This document shows, piece after piece, positions 2,766 through 57,417 of a stretch of DNA of 64,000 bases. Origin of the DNA: Cephalotus follicularis (lineage: Eukaryota; Streptophyta; Magnoliopsida; Oxalidales; Cephalotaceae). The stretch's first letter is position 1. Each line of letters opens with the position of its first letter. The notes beneath the pieces are model-generated. The model did no database searches. It had not been told where the DNA came from and saw nothing but the letters and a program-made list of their open reading frames with translations. Made by a program: the position numbers and the translations under genes. The stretch spans positions 145,776 to 209,775 of the forward strand of contig BDDD01001960.1 in NCBI GenBank assembly GCA_001972305.1, read 5' to 3'.

Positions 2766-3956
2766 TGTCACGCCCCCGTTTCGGTGAGACAACATTAAAG
2801 CGGTAAAGGCAATTAACATATAATTTCAGCTGATAAAATTTAAACTTTTAAGCAAGATGTCAGTTGCAGAAGCATAAGACTGATAAGCTGAAAACTCGTG
2901 ACGTGCATCCCATACTGCACGCTACTCAAAACAAGTCCGTCATTGTTAAAAGCCCACAAAACGAAGCGTGTTCACAGTACAATATTAAATCCCATCATTA
3001 ACAAAACCATAAGTACGGTACATCAGAAATCCTTTAACAAAACAGTTTATTACAACTTACAAAGTAGAACCAAGAATAATAACAACAGAACGACTTGTTC
3101 TTCGTCCATGCCAGTCCAATCGGTCCACTGCATCAATCTGTAAAGTAGGGGGGGTTAGCCTTTGTCCTCACTCGGCTAAGTCATAGAAGTAGCTCGGGAT
3201 CAACGTTAGATGCATGTCATGTAATGTATGCATAAATGATGCAGTGCAGGAAATACCAGTTTACATATATATATATATATATGAGAAATATATATATTTT
3301 AGCAGTACAGTAAAATAACAGTGGTTACATATATAAGAAAATATATGTATACAAGAACAGTATAGTTGTAACCCGGCCAAGGTTACATCAATAGACACAG
3401 TAATGTCCGAAAAGGACCAACAGGCAGTACAGTATGTCCATAAAGGACCACAACAGTCAGGCAGTATGTGTAACGCCACCAACTCCTGGCCCCATGCCAC
3501 ATTCCCACTTCGGTCCCTACTCCAGGTAACCAAGCGAGGCAACAGTACAGTACAGTGTGTCACCCAGCCAACTCCTGCACGTTATCTTGTCAGCAGAGTA
3601 ACGTGTTTGACATTTGATGTTTACGCATCGACGTCTTCTTCAAAGACGTTGACGTCTTTCCCCCTTTACACAAGGGCGTCGATGTCCTTGCCTGCATCGA
3701 CGTGCATGTGCATGCAGTTACGTGCGCCCCTTTCCTTCAAGGACGTCGATGTGTTTCTAAAGGCGTCGACGCGTTTCCTCCAAAACAGCGTCGTTTCACC
3801 CTTTTAACACTCCTTTAACATTTTTACTCTAAAATTTAACATTATTAGAGTTTGGAAAACATCATCAAATCCTTGGAAATCCATCACTTTATTAATTCCA
3901 CAATAAATACACATTACATTGTGAAATTACAACATAGGAAAATCTCGGGCATTACA
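2766..3956 (-). repeat. G1 3' LTR
   Basis: The plus strand reads TGTCACGCCC at the left and GGGCATTACA at the right. It matches both ends of the LTR at 14688-17398 but is the shorter member of the pair. It contains a block with GTCGAC/GTCGAT-core motifs (about 3625-3770) and a TA dinucleotide run near 3269. Confidence 0.9.
3625..3770. repeat. GTCGA-core motif array in G1 3' LTR
   Basis: Repeated short palindrome-like words such as GCATCGACGTC, AAAGACGTTGACGTCTTT, GGCGTCGATGTCC and GGCGTCGACGCG, spaced mostly about 20 or 30 bp. It matches the array at about 17055-17215 in the other LTR. Confidence 0.75.
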
Positions 3957-3979
3957 TCCACCCCCCCCCCCCCCTTCAA
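3957..3979 (-). other. polypurine tract of G1
   Basis: On the minus strand this is a purine tract containing 14 consecutive G (C at 3961-3974 on the plus strand) ending in GGAT, directly before the 3' LTR. Position and composition are those of a plus-strand priming site. The unusually pure G run may have grown by slippage. Confidence 0.8.
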
Positions 3980-4009
3980 GAAATTTCGTTATCGAAATTT
4001 AAAACAAAA

Positions 4010-6543: not shown

Positions 6544-6558
6544 CTGGTCAAAAAATTC

Positions 6559-7509: not shown

Positions 7510-8915
7510 TGTTAGATATAGTGACCCGACAAGCCATTAGATGGATTGTCAGATTAGATCTTACCATGTATTGAACAATCTTTTTCCTTATATATGATGC
7601 GTGCTAATTTTTTATGGCTATATCACTTGTATTTTATCACATAGTTGAAGTAGTTTAATTACCTACTTATACTAGTGATGCCCTGACATAAGGTTGGATG
7701 CCTGGCATGGAGGTTGTGAGACTGGTTACCTTATTCCTTATGTCAAACTTGTTCCAAGTCATAGGTTCACTTTGTGGGAATTAGTGAACCGGATAGACTT
7801 GCGCGTATGTTGCCTGCTCATGGAATCGGGGGATGGATTCTCTCACTACCATCTGTGTTAGACACTAGGGCAAATACGGGGTGCACACTGGGCGCGTGTA
7901 CACTGAACAGGACCCGCGTAGGAGACACTGTTTGGATAGTCGCTATTCTCGTGTCAGTAGTGACTCCTGCTTCTTACGGTTGTGTATAAGTGATTATCAC
8001 TTAGCGAGTTCTTTAACTCTTCTGATCCTTAGACCTGAGTGACTACTCTATATTGTATGGAGACGGTTATGCTTTGATCTCCACCTTACCCACGTCGATG
8101 TCTTTTAGAAAGCATCGATGTGCTTTAGTGCCACGTTGCATAGGCGTCGACGTCCTTTGGAAGGCGTCGACGTCTTTGAGCAGAACGTGTAACCAGTGCA
8201 CGATCTTACTTCGTGGGCACTACTTCTCTCACATCCTTAGCCGGTTTCTCTTGATTTTACACGTTATGGAAACGTGGGATTCATGGATTCGGACTCCCAG
8301 GGAGTGAAGGCCATGATCCTAAGTGAATGGGAGATTGGGAGAGAGAAATTGAGGCTGGTATTAAGCATTTCTGCAGAAAGAGAGAAGTGAGAAAAAAGTT
8401 GGAGTTTTGTTGGGCAAAAGGCTTCGATTCTCTCTACAGATTGTGTGTTCCCTTCAGTTGAAATACACCAAGCAAGGCTTATCTAGGGTGGATTGATTAT
8501 TGACTTCATTGGTCATAATCAACACTCCTTTTCTAAGCTAAGTGAGTGAGAGAGTGAGTTTAAGTACTTTGATTTTACTGGTTGGATTGCTTGTTGTTCC
8601 TGAGGCTTGGATAACATCAAGGGAATCTACTCAAGCTTGTAGCGGCAAAGAAAGAAGGAGCCTTCACCCACTGGTATAACCTTTGGTCCCTCTTCTTATT
8701 GCCATGCTTGTATGTCACCATTGTTTGCAATGGTGACACCAATTCAATTTAGTTGATGTTGTGGTGATCCATGTGGTCTGTGGATGTGTCATTATGGACT
8801 AGTTTTGTTAAATAGGGTGTTATTCCGCTGCCATGATTGTTGTTTAAAATTTTATTATACACCCTTACACCCTTTGTCCATTTTGACACCGGACTCGGTA
8901 TATCTGATTCCATCA
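7510..8915 (+). repeat. copia-3 5' LTR
   Basis: Begins TGTTAGATATAGTGACCCG and ends GATTCCATCA, directly followed by the primer site. It is related to the copia-2 LTR along most of its length. GTCGAC/GTCGAT-core words lie at about 8095-8180. Confidence 0.9.
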
Positions 8916-8916
8916 G

Positions 8917-8928: not shown

Positions 8929-9218
8929 GTCCCACATCATCCTTAATGGAATATGTATGCCTTAGATGATGTACCGATTAATAGTTTAATCATTGGATGT
9001 GTTTTTGTGATCAAACTAAATTTTCTAAGTGCCTCAATGAAAATTGCATGAAATTGGATTTCATTGTGTTTTTGTGCTGGGAATGTTGTTTAAATGTGTT
9101 TAGAATTAAGTTTGGAATATGCATAGTGCATTTTGGAATACCAGAATGGTATACCATAGTCTAAACCATTGAATTCAGCATTTTTCAAAATGCATAAAAT
9201 GCCCAGGTGGCTAAAGAC

Positions 9219-9455
9219 GTTGAAGTCTTTGTTAAGACGTCGATGTCATGTCAAATTCCCAGTAAAGACGTCGACGTTCGTGATAGACGTCGATGTGTGG
9301 ATCATACTTTGTGAAACGCGTCGATGTTATTTTTTGTACGTTGACGTCTTTTTCAAATGTTCTTGTGAAACGCATTGATGCTCTGTTTTTGCATCGACGC
9401 CTTGTTCATATTTTTCCAGAAAACACGTCGATGCCTTTGGTAAGGCGTCGACGTC
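9219..9455 (+). repeat. GTCGA-core motif array in the copia-3 leader
   Basis: Ten motifs with core GTCGAC, GTCGAT, GTTGAC or a close variant lie between primer site and gag. Core starts are at 9219, 9239, 9270, 9289, 9320, 9340, 9374, 9393, 9427 and 9447. Steps alternate 20/31/19/31/20/34/19/34/20, so they form pairs one 20-bp step apart with about three helical turns between pairs. Arms are often AAGAC...GTCTTT. Confidence 0.85.
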
Positions 9456-9568
9456 TTTCATAAAAAAAAACTGTTTTTGTATAAAATTGGATTTTATACA
9501 TTTTGGCACTTGGAAGATTAAAATCATTGCTTGATTTAGTGGGAGTTTGGTCAATTAACAATCATTGA

Positions 9569-11350: not shown

Positions 11351-11359
11351 CTAGGAGCC

Positions 11360-12052: not shown

Positions 12053-13503
12053 TCGGCCCTATTATGGTCTGATTATACTTTGGACTTATGAAATCCTTGG
12101 CCAAGGTTGAGGGAGACTGGAAATTAGATTTCTGGAGAGTTTATCAAAGGTCCTAGTAATGATCAGGTATTTTAGCCATTGAGGTACTATCTAGGGTTGA
12201 CACATATCCTTACCCTAGACCTCAATCGGGCCAAGTATGACAAGGGATTATAGTGCACGCGAACTGACGACTTAGAAAATCTGGGTTATTGAGGTGTGGG
12301 GAAAATTAATTAGATTAATTTTTCATCTGGATAATATTAGATATTATTCTGAGAGCATTTAAATGGTCGAGGACCATTTAGAATGGCTAAACCGGACCCG
12401 AGGGGTATTTCGGTAATTTATGAACACCTCTCGTTCTAACCAAGATTTTAAAGGGTCCCTGCCTTATAATGATTAGATCTTTAATATATTGGACATATTA
12501 AGTCTTTGTGTCAAATATCGGTTGTGTGGATTTTGCATTTTGTGGAAACACATATGCTTGATCTTACTTAACCAATGTTTGAAAGTTATAATCACTAAAA
12601 GAGTTAGACTCTTTATGCTTGTCTGGCCAGAAGGCGTCGATGTCTTTTAGAAAGACGTCGATGCTTTTCTCTGATAAAGACGTCGATGTCTATTAGAAAG
12701 CATCGATGTGCTTTAGTGCCACGTTGCATAGGCGTCGACGTCCTTTGGAAGGCGTCGACGTCTTTGAGCAGAACGTGCAACCAGTGCACGATCTCACTTC
12801 GTGGGCACTACTTCTCTCATATCCTTAGTCGGTTTCTCTTGATTTTACACGTTATGGAAACGTGGGATTCATTGCTTCGGACTCCCAGGGAGTGAAGGCC
12901 ATGATCCTAAGTGAATGGGAGATTGGGAGAGAGAAATTGAGGCTGGTATTAAGCATTTCTACAGAAAGAGAGAAGTGAGAAAAAAGTTGGAGTTTTGCTG
13001 GGCAAGAGGCTTCGATTCTCTCTGCAGATTGTGTGTTCCCGTCAGTTGAAATACACCAAGCAAGGCTTATCTAGGGTGGATTGATTATTGACTTCATTGG
13101 TCATAATCAATACTCCTTTTCTATGCTAAGTGAGAGAGAGAGTGAGTTCAAGTACTTTGATTTTACTGGTTGGATTGCTTGATGTTCCTGAGGCTTGGAT
13201 AACATCAAGGGAATCTACTCAAGCTTGTAGCAGCAAAGAAAGAAGGAGCCTTCACCCACTAGTATAACCTTTGGTCCCTCTTTTTCTTACCATGCTTGTG
13301 TGTCACCATTGTTTGCAATGGTGACACCAATTCAATTTTGTTGATGTTGTTGTAATCCATGTGGTCTGTGGACGTGTCATTATGGACTAGTTTTGTTAAA
13401 TAGGGTGTTATTCCACTGCCATGATTGTTGTTTAAAATTTTATTCTACACCCTTACACCCTTTGTCCATTTTGACACCGGACTCAGTATATCCAATTCCA
13501 TCA
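12053..13503 (+). repeat. copia-3 3' LTR
   Basis: From about 12053 the sequence matches copia-2 LTR sequence around 17747 (GATCGGCCCTATTATGGTCT). From 12676 it matches the 5' LTR of copia-3 nearly base for base to the final CCATCA. GTCGA-core words occur at about 12636-12770. It is followed at once by the target duplication GGCGC. Confidence 0.88.
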
Positions 13504-14683: not shown

Positions 14684-15977
14684 TGCTTGTCACGCCCCCG
14701 TTTCAGTGAGACAACATTAAAGCGGTAAAGGCAATTAACATATAATTTCAGTTAATAAAATTTAAACATTTAAGCAAGATTTCAGTTGCGGAAGTATAAG
14801 ATTGATAAGCTGAAAACTCGTAACGTGCATCCCATACTGCACGGTACTCAAAACAAGTCCGTCATTGTTAAAAGCCCACAAAACGGAGCGTGTTCACAGT
14901 ACAATATTAAATCCCATCATTAACAAAACCATAAGTACGGTACATCAGAAATCCTTTAACAAAACAGTTTATTACAAATTAGAAAGTAGAACCAAGAACA
15001 ATAACAACATAACGACTTGTTCTTCGTCCATGCCAGTCCAATCGGTCCACTGCATCAATCTGTAAAGTAGGGGGGTTAGCCTTTGTCCTCACTCGGCTAA
15101 GCCATAAAAGTAGCTCGGGATCAACGTTAGATGCATGTCATGTAATGTATGCATAAATGATGCAATGCAGGAAATACCAGTTTATATATATATATTTTCG
15201 CAGTACAGTAAAATAACAGTGGTTACATATATAAGAAAATATATGTATACAAGAACAGTACAGTTGTAACCCGGCCAAGGTTACATCAACAGGCATAGTA
15301 ATGTCCAAAAAGGACCAACAAGCAGTACAGTATGTCCACAAAGGACCACAACAGTCAGGAAGTATGTGTAACGCCACCAACTCCTGGCCCCACGCTACAC
15401 TCCCACTTCGGTCCCTACTCCAGGCAACCAAGCAAGGCAACAGTACAGTACAGTGAGTCACCGAGCCAACTCCTGGCCCCTAGGTCAACCCTACCACTAG
15501 CCGGCGCTGGCAGCCTCCGCCATGCAACCAGTGGCTCAAGCACAACCACATAGAAATTCACAGAGCAAACAGTGAATCAAACAGTAAACAGTGCAGTAAC
15601 AGTACATTGGTAATCATTTAGATCGACAACAGACAGTTCATTTTCAAATATTTCTGGAAGTAGTAAATATTTGAAATATGTATTTTCAGTAGTAGAAATA
15701 CTTTTGAACAATTCAGTAGTGTAAATCGCTTTCCAGTTCGTTCGAAAATACGTTATTAATAAATACATATTTTCATACTCAAAATAGTGCATTCTGAGTT
15801 CACATATGCATTTCTAAATATCATAACTTTAGAAATCATATACGATTTACAAATAGTGGACAAACAAGCAGTAAACAGTGTATATGCGATGCATACAAAT
15901 ACTCAAATGCACCCTAACAGGAATCGGGATCGTTTTGCATCGTTAGATAAGGAAACCTCCAAACAGTACCAAAAGAC

Positions 15978-16300
15978 GCCGATGTCTATTAAAAGGCGTC
16001 GATGTCTTTATCCATCAATGTCGATGTCCAAGTCCTTAGTGTCAATGTTTCCTACTGTTTAAAGATGTCAATGTCCATTTTATACGCATCGATGCTCAAG
16101 GTCTAGAACCTTAAAACGTCGACGTATTGCTTATGGAGTCGACGCGTTAGGGTAGGAACCCTAGGCGTTGACGTGTTATACGTCAAAACCCAAACAGATA
16201 GCCTAACGCGTCGATGTCTTTCCAAAGACGTCGATCTGTTTCACATCAGTAACCAAGCAAATAACCCAAAGACGTCGATGTAATTAAAAGGCGTCGATGT
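15978..16300. repeat. GTCGA-core motif array in G1 5' LTR (inner array)
   Basis: Thirteen or so motifs, e.g. AAAGGCGTCGATGTCTTT and AACGCGTCGATGTCTTT. Core starts include 15978, 15998, 16020, 16041, 16067, 16088, 16118, 16138, 16167, 16210, 16230, 16274 and 16293. Most steps are 19-22 bp, with others near 30 or 43. In element orientation the array spans about +1.10 to +1.42 kb of the LTR. Confidence 0.85.
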
Positions 16301-17054
16301 TTTTCAAGCAGCAGTCGTCTTCTTCCTCACGACATAACAGACAGTAGCCATTACAACTCATATACATGCAAAATGACATGTAATCAAGGCAGTAAACCAA
16401 CATGCAGATACATGTCACATATCTATCATAACATGGCATTAATCCAGGGAGCAAAATCAATTCAGTATTCATGCAATTTATACCCAAAATCATAGTCCAT
16501 GCATGAACATTCATCTCAAGATTACAGTTATGGCTTCCCCTACCTTTTGTTCCAAGTTAGAAACTGGAAAGTCCACCTCTTTGCATTCCAAACCGGTCAC
16601 AGCAGCTCCAAGAATCGTCCCGTTGCTTCTAGCCCACGAGCTCTAAGTCCCAAGCTCCAAATTGCTCAACAATGGTGGTTTGGGCCTCTTTCCTTAACTT
16701 TCTGTTTTCTTACTCTCACTGTTTCTTTTGTGTTTTCCTTTCCCTTATTTTCTCTTTGCTCGTTTTGGGTAGAGAAGGGTGTTTTATGTTGGTTGGAGTT
16801 TGTTTCCTTCTGCACCAATGCCAGAATCCCCTCTTCTTCACACCCTCCCCACACCTGGTTGCATGGCGCACCAAGTGTCTCCCCTTTGCTGCCAAGGCCC
16901 ATGCATGCTCTCACATGCCTTCCCATTTCTGCCAGTTCAGTCCTAGCAGTGCAGGGTACCATATTGCATGCTTAACACGTCTTGATCTGCATGTTAAATG
17001 CGTGGATAAAGCCCCCTTGCACGTTATCTTGTCAGCAGAGTAACGTGTTTGACA

Positions 17055-17215
17055 TTCGATGTTTATGCATCGACGTCTTCTTCAAAGACGTCGATGTCTT
17101 TCCCCCTTTACATGAGGGCGTCGATGTCCTTGCCTGTATTGACGTGCGTGTGCATGCAGTTACGTGCGCCCCTTTGCTTCCAGGACGTCGATGTGTTTCT
17201 AAAGGCGTCGACGCG
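17055..17215. repeat. GTCGA-core motif array in G1 5' LTR (outer array)
   Basis: Motifs include AAAGACGTCGATGTCTTT (core at 17090), GGCGTCGATGTCC (17120), GGACGTCGATGTG (17187) and GGCGTCGACGCG (17207). It lies at about +0.18 to +0.34 kb of the LTR in element orientation and matches the array in the 3' LTR. Confidence 0.8.
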
Positions 17216-17398
17216 TTTCCTCCAAAACAGCGTCGTTTCACCCTTTTAACATTCCTTTAACATTTTTACTCTAAAATTTAACATTATTAGAGTTTGGAAA
17301 ACATCATCAAAGCCTTGGAAATCCATCACTTTATTAATTCCACAATAAAGACACATTACATTGTGAAATTACAACATAGGAAAATCTTGGGCGTTACA

Positions 17399-17403: not shown

Positions 17404-19277
17404 GTTGGGACACTAGGGCAAATACGGGGTGTGCGCTAGGAGTGTGTACACTGAACAGGACCCGCGTGGGAGACACTATTTGGATAGTCGCTATTCTCAT
17501 GTCAGTAGTGACTCCTACTTGTTATGGTTGTGTATAAGTGCTAGTCACTTAGCGAGCTAACAAACTCGTCTGGTCCTTAGACCTGAGCGACTGCTATATA
17601 TTATATGGAGATGGTTATGCTTTGATCTCCACCTTACCCAGTTCTTACGCAGGGCTGACAATGAAGTGGTCTTTGGGTATGATCTAATCTATGCGAATAT
17701 AAGCGAGTGCACAATATGGGATTGCCACACCTGAGCGAAGGTGATCGGCCCTATTATGGTCTGATTGTACTTTAGACTTATGAAATCCTCGGCCAAGGTT
17801 GAGGTGAACTGGAAATTAGATTTCTGGAGAGTCTACCAAAGGTCCTAGTAATAATCAGATATTTTAGCCATTGAGGTATTATCTAGGGTTGACACGTATC
17901 CTTACCCTAGACCTCAATCGGGGCCAAGTATGATAAGGGATTATAGTATGCGCGAACCGATGACTTAAAAAGTCTCGCATTACGGCGGTATGTGATAAAT
18001 TATGAGAAAATTAATTAGATTAATTTTTCATCTAGATAATATTTGATATTATTTTGGGAGCATTTAAATAGGTCTGGGACTATTTAGAATGGCTTAACCG
18101 AACCCTAGGGGTATTTTGGTAATTTATGAACACCACCGATTTTAAGCGAGATTTTAAAGGGTCCCTGTCCGATAATGATTTGTTCATGAATATGTTGGAC
18201 ATATTTAAGCCTTGGTGACAATTATAAAATCAAATATTGGTTAGGTGGATTTTGCGAATTGTGCCATCATTAAATGGTGACACATTTGCTTAATCTTATT
18301 TAATTAATATTCGAGGGGATATGCAGCATCACTTAAATAGGTAGGACCTTTATATGATGTAGTGGATAAGTTCCCGGTGAAGTAAACATGTGTTATATAA
18401 AGAATGAGTTGGACTCATTTTTGACATATGCAAAGACTAGCCAGTCTAAGCGTCTACGTCTTTTTGAAAAGGCATTGACGCTTAACCATGTCAAAGCACC
18501 GATGCTTAGTGCCCGAAATTTGGGCGCGCGATCTCTCTCCCACTCCCAACGTTTTTCACTTCTTAGAAAGTGGAAGGGAGCACATCAGGATCATGGGTAC
18601 ATGTTTCCTTAGAGGAAGCGACATGATCAATGAGTGCATGAGTGGGTGCGACTAGAGAGTGTGTGTGTGTGAAATCGGACAGCATAAAAACAAAGGAAAA
18701 TATTGCAGAGGGATGTGTGATTTTGTAATACACTGCTTGGCAAGTTCTCTGCACATATTCCTTCACTGATTTGTTCACCAAGCTTGGAGCTAACCTAGAG
18801 TGGATTGTTATTGAAAACCTTGTCTAGATCAATGCATCCTTGGTGAGCATAGTGAGAGAGTGCTGAGTGTGACATTATAGAGTGAGAGAACAAGGACTAT
18901 TTTTTTCTTGTCGGTTGCTGGCGTTTTTCAACCAGGTCCTTGGAGCAGTAGCTGAGAACTAAAAGCTTGGAGAACCAACGTGAGTCTACCCAAGCTTGTA
19001 CCGACAAAGACGAAGGAGCCATCACCATACAGTTTGACTTCCTTATCTCTCTCTATGTCGCCATGTTTGTGCATCACATTTGCATGTATGTGTGATGTAA
19101 TTAAAGTATGACATGATATGGTGTTCCTTGTGAATTGCGCATTCCCTGAATTGGACCATGTTTTTGGTGTTAGAGGTTTTATATTCCACTGCCTATTCAT
19201 CAGAAAAAGTTTTATTTGCACAAATAACACCCTTTGGTTCGATTCCCGTTTGCGGGGATTATGTACCATTCCCAACA
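17404..19277 (+). repeat. copia-2 5' LTR, right block
   Basis: Continues the LTR begun at 2404. It parallels copia-3 LTR sequence (GACACTAGGGCAAATACGGG) and ends TTCCCAACA before a primer site. Together with the left block the LTR is about 2.2 kb, long for a copia element. GTCGA-like words lie at about 18450-18510. No gene is seen. Confidence 0.85.
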
Positions 19278-19290: not shown

Positions 19291-21132
19291 CAACCATATC
19301 ATCCATAGTTGAATTTTGATGCCTAGGATAATGACTAATTGAATGTTTAATTAGTGGTTATGTTTGTATGGTTGAAATCATCCTCTAAGTGCCTAAGTGT
19401 AATCTTGATGTTTGTAAGTTTTTGAATGAAATTGAATTTCGTTTTGTGATATTGTCCTGGGGATGGTATTACAATATGTTTTGACTTATGTTTAGAACCT
19501 GCATAGTGTAGTTTGGATTGCCAAACTTTTGCATATTGCAGAAATTTGGAATGCCAAAGTTCAAACAATGAAAAACTGTAGATATGTGGCATGGTGTCGA
19601 CCTGTATGGGGTTTAAGCGTCGAAGTTTACTATTGAAGTGTCGATGCTTACCTCGATGTTTTATGTTTTAGCACTGAAGGCTGTGTTAATCGTTGACGTT
19701 TTGTAATAAACTGTCGACACTTAGGCACTATGCATTAATATTTTTCTTTAAAGCGTTGACGCTATTAGCAAAAGAGTTGACGCTTTTAGGTAAAGCGTCG
19801 ACACTTGCCTAAGCACTGAAACAGATGTTAAACGTTGACGAATATGGTCGACGCCTAGGACGTTGGACATTTAGCGTCGACGCCTATCCATAGTGTCGAT
19901 GCTCAAACTTTATATATATATATATTGCACAGTTTGTAAACATTTGTAATTTTTGCATTCAGCCACTTAGAGGATAATAATCATTGCTTGATTTAGTAGG
20001 AGTATGACCTATAAACAATCTATAATATTAAATTTTTTTAATTGGTTATTATGAGAGGAATTTGTGTATTGTTTTGAAGTTATATTAGATATGGTTTACT
20101 ACTCTTATGCACAATGGATGGCCTATAAGGACAAGACGTAGTTTTGGTTTTCTTTTGTGGATGATTTAATCTATTATTTATTAATGGTCTGTAATTAGGT
20201 GCTTGCGTGCACCATTTATTTTTCCTCTTATGTATTTTCTTCTTTAAATATTTTATATGTAATTTTCATTTGAAATGTAAAAGTTCCTTTTGTAAAGGAA
20301 GAACTTGCAAGGAGAAATGGAGGAGAGGAGAAAAGAAGTACAAGACCATTGAAGGCCATAAATGCATGATTACGAATGTAATAGATTTAATCATAACACC
20401 TATGAAGACCAAGTAGTGACTTTGGGCTCAAGTCATTACTTATAGTGATGTCCTTGCCATTCCATTGATTTATTTTAAAAATAAATCCAAGGTGCATAAG
20501 ATGGATAGTCCAAATACACGTCATGCACGCAAAGCTGTAATTAATTGTAATTGGGTAATGAAACCAATGAATTAATTAAATGTCTTGGTAAATTAAAATT
20601 TGAGACCGCAAATTCCCTCAATTAAATAATAAGTCTGAACGTAGGAACCCATAGGGTGGTTCCCCGTGGCCTTCCACAATTTTTGTTGAGTGGTGTACCT
20701 GGGTTATTTGTTTGTCATGCCCTAACTAAGGCCAGTAACCTATGGGACGCTATGTTAACGTCGGTGTTGGGCACCGCAAAGGGTGGCTATGTTTTAGCAC
20801 TTGGACACGCCTACGTGTGGGTGTTAAAACTAGTGCATTCCAATGAAGATTATGGGTTTTTGACTTATCATGATTCTAATGGTTTTTTATGCCTAAGCTA
20901 AGGCCATATTGAATCTAAGACCAAATTGTATGATTGGATCCTGTATTGGATACAAATCGGCAAGATAGCCTACCCATTGGATATATTATGATTTGTTATG
21001 CTCTAGCTGAGGTCATAATATGATTGTGATGGATTCCAATTCCCACTAGGAAGTTGGACTTCTCGAGTTCCATATGGGGGTATGGGATACGATTAGAATA
21101 GTAGGAGGAACCATAAGCACTAAAGACCAAGT
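19291..21132 (+). other. copia-2 untranslated leader (before S1)
   Basis: No coding sequence is recognised. The first part parallels the copia-3 leader (CATCATCC..., then AATCATTGCTTGATTTAGT at about 19977). An array of GTCGA-core motifs lies at 19596-19900, followed by an AT run (19912-19925). The stretch 20040-21132 is AT-rich and unassigned; by position it is leader upstream of gag. Confidence 0.65.
19596..19900 (+). repeat. GTCGA-core motif array in the copia-2 leader
   Basis: Motifs such as AAAGCGTCGACACTT, AAAGCGTTGACGC, GGTCGACGCC and AGCGTCGACGCC. Core starts include 19596, 19619, 19640, 19692, 19713, 19755, 19776, 19797, 19876 and 19895. Steps of 21 recur, with 40-42 where one step is skipped. 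It occupies the same leader position as the copia-3 array but has AAGCG rather than AAGAC arms. Confidence 0.8.
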
Positions 21133-21137: not shown

Positions 21138-21302
21138 TGTAACGCCCGAAAATTTAATTTCATGTATTATTGTAATCCTCGATGTAATCTTTACCTTGAA
21201 TTAATAAAAGCCAAATTTCCTGGTTGATGTCTTGAATTCAAGTTAACTTAGAGCATTTGGAGGTATGATTCTAAGTATAATTGTGGGGATTTTTGGCCTG
21301 GA

Positions 21303-21452
21303 CAGCCAACTGGTGAGATATACCAGCCGACTATTGGACTAAAGGGAGAGGCAGTCGACTGGCGTGAGGAACCAGTCGACTGGACAACTGTCATGACACT
21401 TGGAAACAGACTACCAGGCGAGGCAGTCAACTGCCAGGGAAAGGCAGCCGAC
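21303..21452 (+). repeat. CAGTCGACTG array 1 in S1
   Basis: Cores start at 21305, 21326, 21354, 21375, 21426 and 21447, giving steps of 21, 28, 21, 51 and 21. Motifs are CAGTCGACTG or CAGCCGACT-like variants. It lies at about +0.17 to +0.31 kb of the LTR, upstream of the TATA-like box. Confidence 0.85.
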
Positions 21453-21530
21453 TGGATCGTGCCCTGTTTTATCTGCATGTGACGAGATCACATGCAGCCC
21501 TTGATAAGACAACTTGCAGGTGCCATCTGA

Positions 21531-21540
21531 TCATAAATAG
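21531..21540 (+). promoter_or_regulatory. TATA-like box in S1
   Basis: TCATAAATAG lies about 390 bp into the LTR. Nearby GA-rich leader-like sequence follows at 21580 onward. Assigned by motif only. Confidence 0.35.
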
Positions 21541-22283
21541 AACGTGTTGGGCATGCACCATCACGTTAGGACCTGCAAAGACAGAGAGGAAGAGAAAGGG
21601 GGACATATGGGTGACCATGCATGTGATGGTAAGAGAGGAAGCTCTTAATGCCATGCAAAAGGGGTTGAAGGAAAAGACTACATAAAAATGCTTCCTGCCT
21701 TCGTCTCTCTCACCCTACAATCTGATAAGAAAGAACCAGAGAGATTGAGAGCCAAGACAATGAGAATTTGAGTGAGAAATAGTGAGGAGGTGAGAGGATC
21801 CTCCATTGTTAAAGCTTGGAGCTTGGATTGAAGCTGCTGGACGGTTCTTGGAGTTACTGGGAAGCTCAAGGATTCTGGAAAGGAGACACAAAGAGGTGGA
21901 CTTTCGATTTCTAACTTGAAATCAAAGGTAGGGGTAGTGGTAGAAAATGTTATGCATGCAATTTGAGTTTAAGTGAAATGATGTTATAAATGGATGGTGT
22001 AATAGTTGGCTATGGATTCTGTGTTAGTGTTATGGTTACTGACTAATGAATAACCTAACATGCATATTGGATTTTGGATGGAGTTTTGGTTGGCTTTCAT
22101 GCAATGCCATGTTTGGTTGTCATTTGAATAATGATGAAAACGGAGAATAATGCATGAATTGAGTTGTGTTTTGGACCAATGTATGATTATGGATGATATT
22201 CTGAGGTTTGAATACGTGTGAATAAGTTCAGTTGCTTGATTGGATGAATTAACAGTGAGTTATTGTCACTGTCCAGCCAAGAG

Positions 22284-22499
22284 CAGCCGACTGCTTAATT
22301 AAAGCAGTCGACTACTCAAATATCCAGTCGACTGGCAAGTAATAACAGTCGACTGCGCATGCAATGTTACCCAGAACAGTCGACTGTCGAAGGAAGGCAG
22401 TCGACTGCCTGGTACTCGTGATGAACAAGTCGACTGCTTGGGAAGAGCAGTCCATTGACTCAAGGATCCAGCCGACTGTTATGGAAAAACAGTCGACTG
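22284..22499 (+). repeat. CAGTCGACTG array 2 in S1
   Basis: Motif starts are 22284, 22305, 22325, 22346, 22377, 22398, 22427, 22448 (degenerate), 22469 and 22490. Steps are 21, 20, 21, 31, 21, 29, 21, 21 and 21. Most copies are the perfect palindrome CAGTCGACTG or the CAGCCGACTG variant. It lies at about +1.15 to +1.36 kb of the LTR, the same offset as the inner G1 array and the X and Y arrays. Confidence 0.92.
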
Positions 22500-41141: not shown

Positions 41142-42518
41142 TGTAACACCCCCGGACGGCGAGAGTCGTCACAGGTCATAATACAGAACATATCATAACA
41201 TATCTGAACATAAACATATCAGCCAAAAACGTGGCGGTCATAGCATAACTGAAAACTTAAAAACTTGACAATTTCTGAAAACTTAAATATTTTCCAGTTT
41301 AAAACTAAAACATATGTATCTTATTGTTCATGACAACTAAACAGAAAACATAATGGGATCACACTCCTAGGGATCCAAGACTTAAGGTGGTCATCTCTCA
41401 TTCACATATTCCCCCGCTGCTCCTGATAACCTGCCGCATGGAAAACAAAAACGCAGCTGAGCAAACCTCAGTATGGATAAGAGAATTAAAACGGTAAACG
41501 ATAAATTTTAAAAGTAGTGAGATTTCAATAAAAATTCATAACAGAAATCTTAAGCAATTAAAAACAATTAAATATTCGTAAAGTCACATTTGTACTTTCA
41601 TAAAAATCCATCTAACTTTCAAAACATTTCAAAACATCACATCACGATTCATAAGTCATACTGAGTCACAGACATATCACATAACATATATTTGGCAAGG
41701 GAGGCGCTAATTCCACATGCCCACTAGAATTGAAGTGTACGGCACTACACAAGTCAATTCTCACATATCACATATCATATACTAGAATCGATTCATACGC
41801 CTCTATCACATGACGGATCCATAAATCAACCTCATGGGATTTATTCATAACATTCAGAGACGCCGTAGACTAATCACACCGCTACGGAAGTGTCATGTCC
41901 CCGTGCCAGGCCTACGACATGCCTATGGTACGCCCCATACGTGGGTACAATACTCAGTATTCAATCATTTTGAAAACATTGATTTATCAAAATCAATTTA
42001 AAACACATAAATATGCTTCCACAAAACATATTTGAAAGTCGTTCACAACAATATCATAACGTACATTTCATAGTCAAAACATCAACTCATTTATTTTTCG
42101 TAATAAAGAGATGATCATTTCGTAACATATCATAACGTATCGTAGCATAAAAATAAAGTCAGGAACATTTAAATTCATAAAATGTCAAAAACCAACTTTA
42201 TTTTCGAAACATATCATAAAACATAACCAAGTCTATAAAACGAGAACATAGAATAAAACTGATTTTAGTTCGATAATTAGATAGCCAAGGAACAGCAGAA
42301 ATCCGTACCTTATGCGTTCACAAAACTCTTACGAAAAGATTGTTCACTCCACTCCCTTTGAAGCACAACAATCTAAAAGACACCCAAAACCATACATATA
42401 GGGTCTAAGAAACATTAGAGACATTAAATAGACTTATATCAGTGGTTGGAAAAGACTCGGATCGATTCGAGGAACAAACGAATCAAAACAGTTGAAAACA
42501 ACACTTTTCTGGGCAAAA

Positions 42519-42766
42519 CAGTCGACTGTTACAGAGCACCAGCCGACTGGGGAAGCTTGGCAGTCGACTAATCTCAAGGGCCAGCCGACTACACAAACCA
42601 GAATGCAGGCAGTTGACTGTCACATAGATCCAGTGGACTGTGCATAACAAGGCAGTCGACTTGTTCAGCGGGCAGTCGACTACACAACACAAGGCAGTCG
42701 ACTGTGTTCATATGGTAGTCGACTACTCATCCAATCCAGCCGACTGTCCACAAGAATAGCCGATTG
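42519..42766 (-). repeat. CAGTCGACTG array in LTR X
   Basis: Twelve motifs start at 42519, 42540, 42561, 42582, 42610, 42631, 42653, 42673, 42694, 42716, 42737 and 42757. Steps are 21, 21, 21, 28, 21, 22, 20, 21, 22, 21 and 20. Most are CAGTCGACTG, CAGCCGACTG or CAGTCGACTA. Duplicated at 52941-53188. Confidence 0.95.
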
Positions 42767-43565
42767 TTCTGGACGACAGAACAGCAGCAACACGACATTT
42801 TTATGCAGAACCCGGTTTAATTGATTACAACATTAAACCAGAGACACAAGGACATAAACATATGACTTTATCTGACATTTGGATGTCAAAGAAACACATA
42901 ATCGACATAGAACAAGATGAACAGTGACTAAACTTCAAGAGAAATCAAGAAGAACATTTACATGTGCATACAAATATATCCAGATTCCTGTCCGTTATCA
43001 TTTGCAGACTTTTAAAAACCAGATTATGACAAGTCTAGGTGTATAAAACATGCTGACAGTCTTGGTAACATAATGACAGAACATATTGACAGGGATGGAA
43101 ATCAAGAGACACTCACAAAGCAAAACTGAAATTATAACAATGAATGAGTAACCATCACAGTAAGAATTACTGACCTGTAATGGTGTTGAAGACAATGAAA
43201 CAGTAGAGGGAACACAACAACACAATCAGAATCGGCTGTACACAAATACAAAAGAGAAGAGAACAAATATATATCTCAAAACTTGTCAAGGAAAGTGTAA
43301 CTGAAAGACAACTAATGACATCAACAAACCTGATACTGATGAATAACGAATCAACACAAGAACACAGCAATTCCAACCTGTAGTTTCGGCAGTGAAAGAC
43401 AATGGAACAACGGATGACATACACACAAAGACAAAGCACTCTTAAACGGGAAGAAGAAGAGTGAATAGGGGGAAAGATAAGGAAATGAATGGGACAAAAT
43501 CAGATTAATAAGGAAAGAAGAAGATTGTTAACGTGTGAAATTGATGAGGGGAGGAGAGAGTTAGG

Positions 43566-44287: not shown

Positions 44288-46799
44288 TGTAACACCCCCG
44301 GATGGCGGGAGTCGTCACAGGTCATAATACAGAATCTATCATAACATAACATATCTGAACATAAACATAACATATCAGCCAAAAACGTGGCGGCGATAGC
44401 ATAACTGAAAACTTAAAAAAACTCAACAATTTCTGAAAACTTAAACATATTCTAGTTCAAAACTAAAACATATGTATCTTATTGTTCATGACCACTTAAA
44501 CAGAAAACATAACGGGATCACACTCATAGGGATCCAAAATATAAAGTGGTCATCTCTCGTTCACACATTCCCCCGCTGCTCCTGATAACCTGCCGCATGG
44601 AAAACAAAAACGCGTCTGAGCAAACGTCAATACGGATAAGGAAAGAAAAAGCAGTAAACGATAAGTTTAAAAGCAGTAAGATTTCAATAAAATTCATAAC
44701 AGAAATCTTAAGCAATTAAAAACAATTAAACATTCATAAAGTCACATTTGTACTTTCATAAAATCCATATAAGTTTCGAAACATTTCAAAACATCATATC
44801 ACGATTCATAAGTCATACTGAGCCACATACATATCACAGAACATATATTTGGCAAGGGAGGCGCTAATTCCAGATGCCCACTAGAATTGAAGTGTACGGC
44901 ACTACACAAGTCAATTCTCACATATCACATATCATATACTATAATCGATTCATACGCCTCTATCATACATAGCGGATCCATAAATCCACCTCATGGGATT
45001 TATTCATAACACTCAGAGACGCCGTAGACTAATCACACCGCTACGGAAGTGTCATGTCCTGTGATAAAGAGATGATCATATCGTAACGTATCTTAGCATA
45101 AAATAAAGTCAGGAACATTTAAATTCATAAAATGTCAAAACCAACTTTATTTCAGAAACATATCATAAAACATAACCAAGTCTATAAAACGAGAACATAG
45201 AATAAAACTGATTTTAGTTCAATAATCATATACCCAAGGAACGGTAGAAATCCGTACCTTTTTTGCGTTCACAAAACTCTAACGAAAAGATTGTCCACTC
45301 AACTCCCTTTGAAGCACAACAATATAAAAGCCACCTAAAACCATTCATATAAGGGTCTAAGAAACACTAAAGACATTAAATAGACTTATTACAGTGTTTA
45401 GAAAACACCTGAATTGATTCGGAGAACAAACAGAGCAAAACAGTTGAAAACAGAAATTTTTCTTGGCAAAACAGCTAGCTGTCACAGGGCTCCATTTGGC
45501 TGTTTAACCTTGGCAGCCGACTGTTAAACAGGGACAGCTGGCTACTCAATAGAAACAGCCGACTTCTTTCATATGGCAGCCGACTGCTCATCCAAACCAG
45601 CCGACTGTTAAAAAAAAATAGCCAGCCGTTCTGGACGATAGAACAGTAGAAATTCGACATTTTCAACACAAAAACTGCCCAAACATGAATTACATCATAC
45701 CATAGACTTATGAACATATACATGAGACATTATATGACATTTAGACAGTGTAAAAACATAGAATTGACATATCTTATGAGACTAGTGACTAAAATCATAG
45801 GAGACCAAAGTAAACCCTAAACACATGCCTACATTTTATGATTCAATTTTACTGTCAAAAGTCATATTCAGTTGTTAAGATCACATTACAACCTGTCTAT
45901 GATGTTTAAAACATACTGACAGACTTAGGAACACAATGACATAACACAATAAGGCAGTAATTCAAAACTTCATAGCCAAGAGGACATAAGATTGAATTTA
46001 TAACATTGTAGCTAACAATCACAGTAGGAAACGAAATAACTAACCTTCAATGGTTTAATAGATACTGTAATGGCAGGAAGAACACCACAAAGCAGTTGTA
46101 AAATGGCTGAACAACAGGAAATCAAAGGAAGAAAACAACACAACTCAAAGCTTGCCAAAGAAATATGATCAAAAGACAACAAAAGACAACGACCAAACCT
46201 GATTTTGATGAAGAACAAAACAATCACAAGAACACAGCAATTCCCACTTGCAACTTCGGCAGTGACAGGCAGAGGAATTTTGGATGACATTCACACAATG
46301 ACGGAAGCATTCTGAAACGGGAAATGTAGAGAGAATTGAGGGAAGGATAATGAATTTGGAAACATAATCTGATCACATAAGGAAGAATAGAAGATTTTCA
46401 GGCAATAAGAATGGAAAATAATATTGAAAACGTGTAGAAATAATGAGGGGAGGAGAGTGTTACGGGAGAAGAGAAGAAAGGAAAGAAAGAAAGAAAGAAA
46501 GAAAGAAAATGAAAGAAAAGAAAATGAAAGAAAATAAATTAAAATGAAATAAATGAAATGTTTTAATAATGTTAAGAATTATAAAATAAAATAAAGTTTT
46601 GGTAAAATAAAATTTATAAATATAAGCCCAACCCACATTGCATTAACATATCAAAATTTTAGGCTGGTATCAAACAACCCAAATCACATAAACCCAAAAC
46701 AAAAGGGCAACCGGACTTTAAAATTAAACAAAATTAAAAATCCCGAAAGCAAACACATAAAAAATCCGTAAAACACATACGAACAAGCAGGGTATTAGA
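44288..46799 (-). repeat. Y-type 3' LTR of G3, unit A
   Basis: Plus-strand start TGTAACACCCCCGGATGG; its end is at GGGTATTA before the polypurine tract. It is related to X but clearly a separate subfamily. It contains a seven-site array at exact 21-bp spacing (45472-45607). Shorter than its unit B partner (54705-57417). Confidence 0.88.
45472..45607 (-). repeat. exact 21-bp motif array in Y-type LTR, unit A
   Basis: Ten-base motifs begin at 45472, 45493, 45514, 45535, 45556, 45577 and 45598, every step exactly 21. Forms are CAGCTAGCTG, CAGCCGACTG, CAGCTGGCTA and similar, a more diverged version of CAGTCGACTG. The minus-strand frame over it shows a seven-residue period, a by-product of the spacing. 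Confidence 0.95.
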
Positions 46800-51559: not shown

Positions 51560-51564
51560 CAATC

Positions 51565-54318
51565 TGTAACACCCCAGGACGACGGGAGTCATCACAGGTC
51601 ATAATACAGAACATATCATAACATATCTGAACATAAACATATCAGCCAAAAACATGGCGGTCATAGCATAACTGAAAACTTAAAAACTTAACAATTTCTG
51701 AAAACTTAAACATTTTCCAGTTCAAAACTAAAACATATGTATCTTATTGTTCATGAAACCTAAACAGAAAACATAATGGGATCACACTCCTAGGGATCCA
51801 AGACTTAAGGTGGTCATCTCTCATTCACACATTCCCCCGCTGCTCCTGCTAACCTGTCGCATGGAAAACAAAAACGCGGCTGAGCAAACCTCAGTACGGA
51901 TAAGAGAATTAAAAAGGTAAACGATAAATTTTAAAAGCAGTGAGATTTCAATAAAAATTCATAACAGAAATCTTAAGCAATTAAAAACAATTAAATATTC
52001 GTAAAGTCACATTTGTACTTTCATAAAAATCCATCTAACTTCTGAAACATTTCAAAACATCATATCACGATTCTTAAGTCATACTGAGCCACATACATAT
52101 CCCATAACATATATTTGGCAAGGGAGGCGCTAATTCCACATACCCACTAGAATTGAAGTGTACGGCACTACACAAGTCAATTCTAACATATCACATGTCA
52201 TATACTAGAATCGATTCATACGCCTCTATCACATAGCGGATCCATAAATCCACCTCATGGGATTTATTCAAAACATTCAGAGACGCCGTAGACTAATCAC
52301 ACCGCTACGGAAGTGTCATGTCCCCGTGCCAGCCTACGACGTGCCTATGGTACGCCCCATACGTGGGTACAATACTCAGTATTCAATCATTTTGAAAACA
52401 TTGATTTATCAAAATCAATTTAAAACACATAAATATGCTTCCACAAAACATATTTGAAAGTCATTCACAACGATATCATAACGTACATTTCATAGTCAAA
52501 ACATCAACTCATTTATTTTTCGTAATAAAGAGATGATCATATCGTAACATATCATAACGTATCGTAGCATAAAAAAAAGTCAGGAACATTTAAATTCATA
52601 AAATGTCAAAAACCAACTTTATTTCCGAAACATATCATAAAACATAACCAAGTCTATAAAATTAGAACATAGAATAAAACTGATTTTAGTTCGATAATCA
52701 GATAGGCAAGGAACAGTAGAAATCCGTACCTTATGCGTTCACAAAACTCTTACGAAAAGATTGTTCACTCGACTCCCTTTGAAGCACAACAATCTAAAAG
52801 ACACCCAAAACCATACATATAAGGGTCTAAGAAACATTAGAGACATTAAATAGACTTATATCAGTGGTTGGAAAAGACCCGGATAGATTCGAGGAACAAA
52901 CGAATCAAAACAGTTGAAAACAACACTTTTCTGGGGAAAACAGTCGACTGTTACAGAGCACCAGCCGACTGGGGAAGCTTGGCAGTCGACTAATCACAAG
53001 GGCCAGTCGACTACAAAAACCAGAATGCAGGCAGTCGACTGTGACATAGATCCAGTCGACTGTGCATAGAAAGGCAGTCGACTTGTTCATCGGGCAGTCG
53101 ACTACACAACACAAGGCAGTCGACTGTGTTCATATGGCAGTCAACTACTCATCCAATCCAGCCGACTGTCCACAAGAACAGCCGATTGTTCTGGACGACA
53201 GAACAACAGCAACACCAATTTTTTATGCAGAAACCAGTTTAATTGATTACAACATTAAACCAGAGACACAAGGGCATAAACATATGACTTTATCTGACAT
53301 TTGGATGTCAAAGAAACACAGAATCGACATAGAACGAGATGAATGGTGACTTAACTTCAAGAGAAAGCAAGAAGAACATTTACATGTGCATACAAATATA
53401 TCCAGATTCCTGTCCGTTACCATTTGCAGACTCTTAAAAACCAGATTATGACAAGTCTAGGTGTATAAAAAATGCTGACAGTCTTAGTAACACAGTGATA
53501 GAACATATTGACAGGGATTGAAATCAAGAGACACTCACAATGCAAAACTGAAATTATAACAATGAATGAGTAACCATCACAACAAGAATTACTGACCTGT
53601 AATGGTGTTGAAGACAATGAAATAGTAGAGGGAACACTACAACACAATCACAATCGGCTGTACACAAATACAAAAAAGAAGAGAACAAATATATATCTCA
53701 AAACTTGTCAAGGAAAGTGTAACCGAAAGACGACTAATGACATCAACAAACCTGATACTGATGAATAACGAATCAACACAAGAACACAGCAATTCCAACC
53801 TGCAGTTTCGGCAGTGAAAGGCAATGGAACAATGGATGACATACACACAAAGACAAAGCACTCTTAAACGGGAAGAAGAAGAGTGAATAGGGGGAAAAAT
53901 AAGGAAATTAGTGGGACAAAATTAGATTAATAAGGAAAGAAGAAGATTGTTAACGTGTGAAATTGATGAAGGGAGGAGAGAGTTCGGGAGAAAGAGAGGG
54001 AAGAAAGAAAGGAAAGAAAGAAAAGAAGGAAGAAAAGAAAAAGGAAAAGAAGGAAAAGAAGTAAAATAAATGAAATAAAAGGATTTTAAAATAAAAATGA
54101 ATTGTTTTAATAAAATAAATTTTTTGATTAACTAAGATAAAAACCCCAAACCCAACATTTCATTAACACATCCAAAATTCGGACTGGTATCAGTCAGCCC
54201 AAATCACATAGGCCTAAAACATAGGGCAACCGGACTTTTAAAATTAACAAAATTAAAAGCCCGAAAACAAACACATAAAAAAATCCGTAAAACACATACG
54301 AACAAACAGGGTATTACA
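51565..54318 (-). repeat. 5' LTR of G3 unit A / first LTR of unit B (X type)
   Basis: TGTAACACCCC to GGGTATTACA, matching LTR X (41142-43898) including the TTCTG that follows (54319-54323). It serves both as the 5' LTR of G3 and as the start of the second duplicated unit, so the crossover that made the duplication should lie inside it. It contains the array at 52941-53188. Confidence 0.88.
52941..53188 (-). repeat. CAGTCGACTG array, X-type LTR in unit B
   Basis: Copy of 42519-42766. More of its sites keep the perfect palindrome (e.g. CAGTCGACTG where unit A has CAGTGGACTG), so it probably lies closer to the original state. Confidence 0.92.
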
Positions 54319-54323
54319 TTCTG

Positions 54324-54704
54324 AGACTTAAATTTTGACTTCTCTCGCTTAAGTGGGTACACTCTTTAACTGATCTTTGACTTTAAACCACTTTAACTCG
54401 AAAAGTAGCGTTTTAACTTCATTTTCTCTTATTCCACAATAATAGACATAATTCCTGAAAATGAAATAAATACACAACAGTAGTCTATTCCAAGAATATA
54501 TATAACAAATAGATCATTAAAAATAACACATTTTTATGCTAAACAAATACCATCATACTTAAACGTTGCTTGTCCTCAAGCAAACAAAATGGAAAGCTAA
54601 CACAAACACAAAAACAAAATCAAACCAGATACTAAAAACAAGAAAACATAAATAAAAACCTAACTCACTTTCGTAGGAATCACGATTGCATTTAGCATAT
54701 GCAA
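54324..54704 (-). repeat. Tat-like LTR/internal scrap, unit B copy
   Basis: Copy of 43904-44287, with the same PPT-side hairpin word (TTGCTTGTCCTCAAGCAA at about 54565) and the same TGCAA before the Y-type LTR. Confidence 0.85.
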
Positions 54705-57417
54705 TGTAACACTCCCGGACGGCGGGAGTCGTCACAGGTCATAATAAAGAATCTATCATAACATAACATATCTGAACATAAACATAACACATCAGCCAAA
54801 AATGTGGCGGTGATAACATAACTGAAAACTTAAAAAACTCAACAATTTCTGAAAACTTAAACATATTCCAGCTCAAAACTAAAACATATGTATCTTATTG
54901 TTCATGACCACTTAAACAGAAAACATAACGGGATCACACTCCTAGGGATCCAAAATATAAGGTGGTCATCTCACGTTCACACATTCCCCTGCTGCTCCTG
55001 ATAACCTGCCGCATGGAAAACAAAAACGCGTCTGAGCAAACCTCAGTACGGATAAGGAAAGAAAAAGCAGTAAACGATAAGTTTAAAAGCAGTAAGATTT
55101 CAATAAAATTCATAACATAAATCTTAAGCAATTAAAAACAATTAAACATTTGTAAAGTCACATTTGTACTTTCATAAAATCCATATAACTTTCGAAACAT
55201 TTCAAAACATCATATCATGATTCATAAGTCATACTGAGCCACATACATATCACAGAACATATATTTGGCAAGGGAGGCGCTAATTCCACATGCCCACTAG
55301 AATTGAAGTGTACGGCACTACACAAATCAATTCTCACATATCACATATCATATCACATATCATATACTAGAATCGATTCATACGCCTCTATCATACATAG
55401 CGGATCCATAAATCCACCTCATGGGATTTATTCATAACACTCAGAGACGCCGTAGACTAATCACACCGCTACGGAAGTGTCATGTCCCCGTGCCAGGCCT
55501 ACGACATGCCTATGGTATGCCCCATAGGTGGGTACAATACTCAGTATTCAATCATTTCGAAAACATTGATTTATCAAAATCAATTTAAAACACATAAATA
55601 TGCTTCCACAAAACTTATTTGAAAGTCGTTCACAGCGATATCATAACGTACATTTCATAGTCAAAACATCAACTCATTTATTTTTGTGATAAAGAGATGA
55701 TCATATCGTAACGTATCTTAGCATAAAATAAAGTCAGGAACATTTAAATTCATAAAATGTCAAAACCAACTTTATTTCAGAAACATATCATAAAACATAA
55801 CCAAGTCTATAAAACGAGAACATAGAATAAAACTGATTTTAGTTCGATAATCAGATAGCCAAGGAACGGTAGAAAACCGCACCTGTTTGCGTTCACAAAA
55901 CTCTTACGAAAAGATTGTTCACTCAACTACCTTTGAAGCACAACAATCTTAAATCCACCCAAAACCATTCATATAAGGGTCTAAGAAACATTAAAGACAT
56001 TAAATAGACTTATTACAGTGTTTAGAAAAGACCCGAATTGATTCGGAGAACAAACGAAGCAAAACAGTTGAAAATAGAAATTTTTCTGGGCAAAATAGCC
56101 AGCTGTCACAGGGCTCCAGTTGGCTGTTTAACCTTGGCAGCTGACTGTTAAACAGGGCCAGCTGGCTACTTAGAAACAGTCGACTGCTTTCATATGGCAG
56201 CTGACTGCTCATCCAAACCAGCCGACTATTAAAAAAAAACAGCCAGCTATTCTGGACGACAGAACAACAGAAATTCGACATTTTCAACACAAAAACTGCC
56301 CAAACATGAATTACATCATACCATAGACTTATGAACATATACATGAGACATTATATGACATTTAGACAGTGTAAAAACATAGAATCAATATATCTTATGA
56401 GACCAGTTACTAAAATCATAGGAGACCAAAGTAAACTCTAAACACATGCCTACATTTTATGATTCAATTTTACTGTCAAAAGTCATATTCAGTTGTTAAG
56501 ATCACATTACAACCTGTCTATGATGTTAAAACATACCGACAGACTTAGGAACACAATGACAAAACACAATAAGGAAGGAATTCAAAACTTCATAGCCAAG
56601 AGGACATAAGACTGAATTTATAACATTGTAGCTAACCATCACAGTAGGAAACGAAATAACTAACCTTCAATGGTTAATAGATACTGTAATGGCAGGAAGA
56701 ACACCACAAAGCAGTTGTAAAACGACAGAACAACAGGAAATCAAAGGAAGAAAACAACACAACTCAAAGCTTGCCAAAGAAATATGATCAAAAGACAACA
56801 AAAGACAATGACCAAACCTGATATTGATGAAGAACAAAACAATCACAAGAACACAGCAATTCCCACTTGCAACTTCGGCAGTGACAGGCAGAGGAATTTC
56901 GGATGACATTCAGACAATGACGGAAGCATTCTGAAATGGGAAAAGAAGAGAGAATTGAGGGAAGGATAATGAATTTAGAAACATAATCTGATCCCATAAG
57001 GAAGAATAGAAGATTTTCAGGCAATAAGAATGGAAAATAATATTGAAAACGTGTAGAAATAATGAGGGGAGGAGAGTGTTACGAGAGAAGAGAAGAAAGG
57101 AAAGAAAGAAAGAAAGAAAGAAAGAAAAGGAAAAAAAGAAAATGAAAGAAAATAAATTAAAATGAAATAAATGAAATGTTTTAATAATGTTAAGAATTAT
57201 AAAATAAAATAAAGTTTTGATAAAATAAAATTTATAAATATAAGCCCAACCCACATTGCATTAACATATCAAAATTTTAGGCCGGTATCAAACAGCCCAA
57301 ATCACATAAACCCAAAACAAAAGGGCAACCAGACTTTAAAATTAAACAAATTTAAAAAGCCCGAAAGCAAACACATAAAAAATCTGTAAAACACATACGA
57401 ACAAGCAGGGTATTACA
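54705..57417 (-). repeat. Y-type 3' LTR, unit B
   Basis: TGTAACACTCCCGGACGG to GGGTATTACA, the fuller copy of 44288-46799. Its motif array starts at 56096, 56117, 56138, 56159, 56177, 56198 and 56219, again 21-bp steps apart from one of 18. Confidence 0.88.

Follow-up and report, generated by a model that had tools for sequence, protein, structure and literature searches.

GTCGAC-core palindrome arrays in gypsy and copia retrotransposons of Cephalotus follicularis: candidate binding sites for host factors

The question this locus set us is easily put: why should retrotransposons of two superfamilies, side by side in one plant genome, carry the same kind of short palindrome at much the same step? 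The locus is a 64-kb stretch of Cephalotus follicularis DNA (contig BDDD01001960.1, positions 145,776 to 209,775; hereafter the window), and it is a nest of long terminal repeat (LTR) retrotransposons. Seven elements matter here. They are G1, a gypsy element on the minus strand; copia A, nested inside G1; copia B, which follows these two at about 17.7-20 kb; the solo LTRs S1 and S2; and the LTRs X and Y. The original prediction, made from the letters of the window (it called copia A copia-3 and copia B copia-2), had taken their palindromes for binding-site arrays. Our own answer, to which we would give roughly an even chance (0.5), is that they may be cis-regulatory arrays, placed in LTRs and leaders, for host dimeric DNA-binding factors.

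Sites, steps and arms

The GTCGAC arrays are a real, non-random cis-architecture. With second copies masked, which left 48,627 bases, GTCGAC occurred 36 times, against a mean of 4.3 and a maximum of 11 in 200 dinucleotide shuffles. Eleven pairs lay 19-22 bp apart and every shuffle had none; for such pairs GTCGAC ranks first of all hexamers, low-complexity hexamers included. A comparison of this kind had been proposed in the original prediction, and within the window it bears the arrays out. The whole window holds 48 copies of the core, of which 44 fall in 15 intervals (3,065 bases in total), all assigned to LTRs or leaders. Arm classes are explained below.

17060..17220, minus strand: G1 right LTR, array a; 5 sites, class I (half-site GACGTCTTT)
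15960..16330, minus strand: G1 right LTR, array b; 11 sites, class I
3610..3790, minus strand: G1 left LTR, copy of array a
12620..12770, plus strand: copia A 3' LTR array; 6 sites, class I
8085..8185, plus strand: copia A 5' LTR, surviving part of the counterpart of the 3' LTR array
9205..9470, plus strand: leader array of copia A; 10 class I sites, set in five pairs at 19-20 bp
18440..18520, plus strand: copia B LTR; three decayed sites (18447-18508), with similar scores under the class I and the class II profile
19585..19910, plus strand: copia B leader array; 12 sites, class II (GACGCTTA)
21295..21465, plus strand: S1 array a; 6 sites, class III (GACTG), with a TATA-like CATAAATA about 70 bp downstream
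22275..22510, plus strand: S1 array b; 10 sites, class III
27470..27690, plus strand: S2 array; 8 sites, class II (GACGCTTTA)
42510..42775, minus strand: LTR X array; 11 sites, class III
52932..53197, minus strand: second copy of the X array
45465..45620, minus strand: LTR Y array; 7 sites, all six steps exactly 21 bp, partly decayed, class III
56130..56240, minus strand: second copy of the Y array, partial

The arrays listed in the original prediction were all found, and array b of the G1 right LTR has to be added to them. The copia arrays, which it had placed in the leaders, lie there and in the LTRs as well (the 3' LTR array of copia A and the three decayed sites of copia B). Two LTR types of the window carry no arrays: LTR-A, scanned over its first 2.9 kb, and an X-like solo LTR, S3.

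Decayed sites found by profile bring the refined set to 89 sites in 11 arrays; three profile matches (S1 23057, S2 27552 and X 42762) were left out as outlying or overlapping, and the weak matches at 19837, 27523 and 45498 were kept. Of 78 steps between sites, 52 measure 19-23 bp, 13 measure 28-34, four 40-44, three 50-54, and six are of other lengths. The original prediction had given 19-22 bp as the commonest step, with 28-34 and 40-44 next. Distances between degenerate cores peak at 21, 42, 63 and 84.

All arrays share the core GTCGAC, with GCCGAC a common variant. The information content is concentrated in the 8 bp or so nearest the dyad, the columns beyond being mostly near background (choosing sites by their core inflates the core columns, not the arms). 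In the core-selected sets used for anatomy, covariation and arm comparison, pairs closer than 12 bp were cut to the better dyad, which brings a small symmetry bias. Spacers between neighbouring sites are 0.17-0.46 identical, at or near background, as the original prediction had said, and with information so close to the dyad this is unlike tandem duplication. We therefore rejected simple tandem duplication as a full account, and the earlier view of binding-site-like arrays in both copia and gypsy elements holds. Tandem Repeats Finder reports a 42-bp unit inside X and its copy.

The arms fall into three classes. Class I (GACGTCTTT) comprises G1 arrays a and b and the copia A LTR and leader, with mutual r of 0.95-0.96; class II (GACGCTT(T)A) unites S2 and the copia B leader (r 0.93); class III (GACTG) takes in both S1 arrays, X and Y (r 0.76-0.93). 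Classes I and II correlate with one another at 0.46-0.61 and class III with either at -0.26 to 0.30, and class III is unrelated to the other two. These are the groupings of the original prediction, apart from a relatedness between classes I and II to which we return. Profiles built on one element find the sites of another far beyond the expectation from 30 shuffles: the copia A profile has 16 matches in the G1 LTR (0.4 expected), the G1 profile 10 in the copia A leader (0.1), the S2 profile 11 in the copia B leader (0.1), the X profile 17 in S1 (0.7) and the S1 profile 12 in X (0.4). Three coding stretches gave 0-4 matches per half-site profile (0.3-2.6 expected), the array-free LTRs S3 and LTR-A gave 0-2, and class III profiles matched 0-2 times in class I and II elements.

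Arms against ancestry

What makes the arms worth following is that, in several of these elements, they do not go with descent. The G1 and S1 LTRs share two alignable blocks (127 bp at 71% and 296 bp at 67%), and both LTRs carry arrays at roughly 190-330 and 1100-1400 counted from their start, the first ahead of the shared blocks and the second between them. Yet these homologous LTRs have different arms, class I in both arrays of G1 and class III in both arrays of S1. The copia leaders repeat the pattern. Copia A and copia B can be aligned both before and after their leader arrays (8910-9143 with 19272-19523, and 9476-9563 with 19933-20020), and despite these aligned flanks copia A has class I arms and copia B class II. 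For copia B this change is seen in the leader, since its three decayed LTR sites score about equally with both profiles. Conversely, gypsy G1 and the copia A leader agree in their arms at r 0.96 (permutation p 0.0002-0.0004), and S2 and copia B at r 0.93 (p 0.0002); these p values were obtained by permuting five arm columns and the four bases, on pairs chosen once the matrix had been seen. It is this distribution of arms across elements that is new, drawn from a few elements of one window.

The superfamilies themselves are distinguished by their coding regions. Copia A has a copia-type pol (GAG-pre-integrase, rve and RVT_2; 9569-10963 and 11351-12052). In its place G1 and X/Y have Retrotrans_gag, RVP_2 and RVT_1, and G1 encodes protease, reverse transcriptase (RT), RNase H and gag. 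A chromodomain stands at the integrase end of the internal region beside the second Y copy (57471-57932); none was detected in G1 at 4010-4981. Both solo LTRs bear target site duplications:

21138..23677, plus strand: S1, solo LTR, target site duplication GTTAT
27247..29435, plus strand: S2, solo LTR inserted in LTR-A, target site duplication AGTGT

Because they are solo, we infer a gypsy nature for S1 and S2 from their LTR ends and, for S1, also from its homology to G1. The earlier claim of several different families is sustained, with kinship inside it: G1 is distantly related to S1, X is related to Y, and copia A to copia B.

X and Y, each about 2.5-2.8 kb, occur twice in a 10.4-kb duplicated arrangement. 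It runs in tandem over 41142-61310, with LTR X, LTR Y and an internal region repeated at about 95% identity. Compared with one another, X and Y form a mosaic, about 71% identical in the array-bearing part and 91% after it, which suggests that the array-bearing part has been exchanged between LTRs. In G1, flanked by TCTGT repeats, the right LTR is complete at about 2.7 kb and the left one is shorter, without the stretch that carries array b in the right. We read this as a probable deletion, because a block inside the missing stretch aligns with S1.

Some observations on these elements stand apart from the argument. The G1 and S1 LTRs, otherwise diverged, have a conserved block (G1 LTR sense 754-867, window about 16534-16647; S1 21815-21937) that ends near a splice-donor-like AAG/GTAGGGG, and S2 has AAG/GTAAGG in a comparable position. 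Array b of G1 and of S1, downstream of that site, may lie inside a leader intron. In copia A (8917-9640) the leader array sits where gag is expected, with a zinc knuckle near the start of the open reading frame, and gag may be shortened or lost. In LTR-A, which has no GTCGAC array, GATCACC and GATGAGC units make up an imperfect 25-bp repeat (26743-26936 and 36040-36234). Finally, a 379-bp unit at 62156-62913 is directly duplicated at 95% identity.

What might read the arrays

Each site is a dyad spanning some 16 bp, in which the GTCGAC-like core is fixed and the arms differ by family. On the reading we prefer, a host dimeric DNA-binding protein would probably sit on neighbouring sites two helical turns apart. 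Once bound, it might drive transcription of the element or protect it from silencing. Elements with two arrays have one early in the LTR (in S1, ahead of the TATA-like box) and a second further downstream, either still in the LTR or in the leader. A single factor would serve both arrays of G1, S1 and copia A, because arms are equal within each element (r 0.95, 0.89 and 0.95, respectively), and different arm classes would answer to different factors. Protein binding, a dimeric factor of host origin and an effect on transcription are suggested by what is observed: the arrays, their dyads and arm classes, their positions and their spacing. The arms shared between gypsy and copia are as a host factor would produce. 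The fixed core and common 21-bp step also favour sites read as DNA, and so does the asymmetric core GTCGAT, which copia A carries in sense and G1 in antisense, that is, in either orientation to transcription.

A bolder idea follows, which we offer tentatively and consider doubtful as it stands: unrelated retrotransposons of one genome may be keeping pace with one shared set of host DNA-binding specificities. Core and 21-bp lattice would stay fixed, and all the arms in both arrays of an element would change together and converge on those of unrelated elements. Concerted and converging arms are what one would expect of elements that follow a diversifying family of host factors, or evade it. With same-position arrays that differ in their arms, and unrelated elements that agree in theirs, the following of shared host factors becomes testable, and the arm sequences can be used directly as baits.

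Five observations weigh against binding by host factors as the explanation. The original prediction had put the sites on one face of the helix; this holds for the 21/42 class alone, because the steps outside it are not significantly phased near 10.5 bp (p 0.44 for 19 steps, p 0.94 for 22), and a 16-bp site packed with a 4-5 bp gap would also yield a 20-21 step. In four copy pairs of the arrays, the duplicates differ at 8 of 138 positions in the cores, 7 of 227 in the arms and 14 of 209 in the spacers, which is not decisive and so does not clearly show constraint on the sites. The other three observations lend themselves to rival accounts. One of these, unlikely in our judgement, is that the palindromes work as RNA, forming hairpins or pairing leader with U3 RNA copies in dimerisation, packaging or circularisation; the step would then be a stem and loop, a 16-nt site and a 4-5 nt gap. 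All ten arrays tested (the copia B LTR was left out) are predicted to form more stable RNA folds than their shuffles, most of them by a wide margin and on either strand, with z of -2.5 to -9.9. Palindromes, however, do so by construction, and five control stretches (z 1.0 to -2.6) overlap the weakest arrays. In copia, neighbouring sites complement each other better than randomly drawn pairs of the array do (12.12 against 11.50; p 0.033, or 0.022 for the leaders by themselves), sense-strand mismatches are more often G-U than A-C (33 to 13), and the copia A leader is built of its five close pairs. The gypsy-type arrays behave in the opposite way (partner test p 0.78; 29 G-U against 55 A-C), which speaks for sites read as DNA. 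Pooled over arrays the partner tests give p 0.25-0.36; the subset tests are uncorrected for multiple testing, with sites in one array not independent. Nor is arm sharing across superfamilies expected from element-specific RNA pairing. RNA hairpins are thus possible chiefly in copia, where the original prediction's suggestion of dimerisation or packaging keeps a weak footing.

Shared descent with exchange would need no present function: one ancestral array would have spread by ancestry and LTR recombination and simply persisted. We think this quite unlikely, although several observations speak for it, namely the blocks common to G1 and S1, the kinship of X and Y and the segment exchange that their mosaic suggests, and the leader flanks shared by the copias. 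Class I and class II profiles also match each other's arrays, with for example 14-15 class II matches in the G1 LTR and 7-9 class I matches in the copia B leader. This points the same way: the two classes are related and have no sharp boundary, a fourth point against distinct host factors. Against descent, homologous pairs differ in their arms and unrelated elements agree, spacers are at or near background identity, and the site pattern is kept in families whose other LTR sequence is largely unalignable. The fifth point is covariation between the two arms of a site inside an array (p 0.006-0.009 for core-selected sites, the copia B LTR left out), as in GTAGTCGACTAC beside CAGTCGACTG, and simple consensus binding would not require this. 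It is what self-perfecting palindromes would give, with hairpin-templated correction during replication or reverse transcription making and repairing dyads and small RNA targeting as a by-product; maize Sirevirus small RNAs do concentrate on such regions, according to the excerpted text of PMC10760457 and PMC5311732. With refined sites the covariation drops to p 0.059, and neither the common core across families nor the 21-bp step is explained, so we hold this account to be very unlikely. Binding by host factors remains the reading we would back.

Relation to known systems

Rfam returned 0 matches at gathering score. Among the matches listed in a limited open-literature search, no arrays of this kind were described in chromoviruses, and those listed for CAGTCGACTG included no retrotransposon work. 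A viral-contig search gave no match to the G1 RT and six pattern matches to the copia RT, none confirmed. The array pattern itself appears in three viral contigs: CAGTCGACTG-type pairs 21 bp apart, reading AGTCGACTG/CAGTCGACA, lie twice in L001 (L001:5240-5290 and L001:11100-11150) and once in L003 (L003:12670-12720), and L002 has a similar pair. We treat these as unrelated to the LTR arrays, a chance or convergent resemblance and perhaps a phage operator.

As a candidate for the array-binding factor, CBF/DREB is only a lead. Barley CBFs accept GTCGAC. To our knowledge, the CRT/DRE site needs neither palindromic arms of 4-8 bp nor a 21-bp step. That site of the CBF/DREB proteins is given as A/GCCGAC (PMC4552142, in excerpt), and GCCGAC is a common core variant of our arrays. 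A known case of clustered host-factor sites is ONSEN, whose LTR carries them for a stress factor; its sites, in the excerpted account of PMC3907296, are nGAAn heat-shock motifs in an LTR without CG sites, unlike dyads at 21 bp. For sharing between orders of transposable elements there is a precedent in maize: the CACCGGACNNNGTCCGGTG palindrome occurs in Copia LTR cis-regions and is also the commonest structured-region motif of Helitrons (PMC10760457). Its core is another one, and the excerpts of that paper do not describe a concerted arm change in homologous arrays.

The closest relatives of our arrays have a name already, although the original prediction knew of none. Palindromic repeated motifs (RM boxes), in clusters, are known from Sirevirus LTRs (Bousios et al. 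2010, PMC2829016, seen in excerpt), and they are of the same kind as ours. In 13 elements they are family-specific dyads in at least 8 copies, mostly in the upper half of the LTR; their clusters are CpG islands with a TATA box downstream, and the authors propose a regulatory role. Ours are likewise clustered short dyads with family-specific arms and a similar LTR position. They number 16 in G1, 16 in S1, 8 in S2, 11 in X, 16 in copia A (6 LTR and 10 leader), 15 in copia B (3 LTR and 12 leader) and 7 in Y, giving at least 8 in six of seven elements, or in four of seven counting the LTR alone. CpG observed/expected ratios reach 1.46-1.88 against flanks of 0.28-0.63 in G1, S2 and the copias, and 0.58-0.91 in the S1, X and Y arrays, with X below its own flanks. 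TATA-like boxes stand in S1 (CATAAATA at 393, after array a) and in S2 (TATTTAA at 648); none was found in the copia A LTR, nor between G1 array a and position 919.

The differences begin with the core, which is GTCGAC here and CGG-CCG in all the published boxes but the exception, Tnd-1; two of the published boxes are nevertheless centred on TCGA, Vitis CGGTCGACCG and Tnd-1 ACAATCGATTGT. The excerpted paper gives no 21-bp step between boxes, its one "21 bp" concerning the integrase signal. The Sirevirus junction of 5' LTR and primer-binding site has the consensus CA-ATTGG-TATCAGAGC, and both of our copias depart from it, reading CA-G-TGGTATCAGAGC (copia A) and CA-G-TGATATCAGAGTC (copia B). Sirevirus genomes are large, about 10 kb; copia A as it stands spans about 5.4 kb (8092-13504), but its 5' LTR is truncated and part of its gag may be missing. 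RM boxes were described as Sirevirus-specific and reported absent from classic copia elements (PMC2829016). The carriers in our window are chromovirus-type gypsy and non-Sirevirus copia elements, with arrays in their leaders and arms shared across superfamilies, so that an architecture published as belonging to Sireviruses now extends to chromoviruses and to other copia elements.

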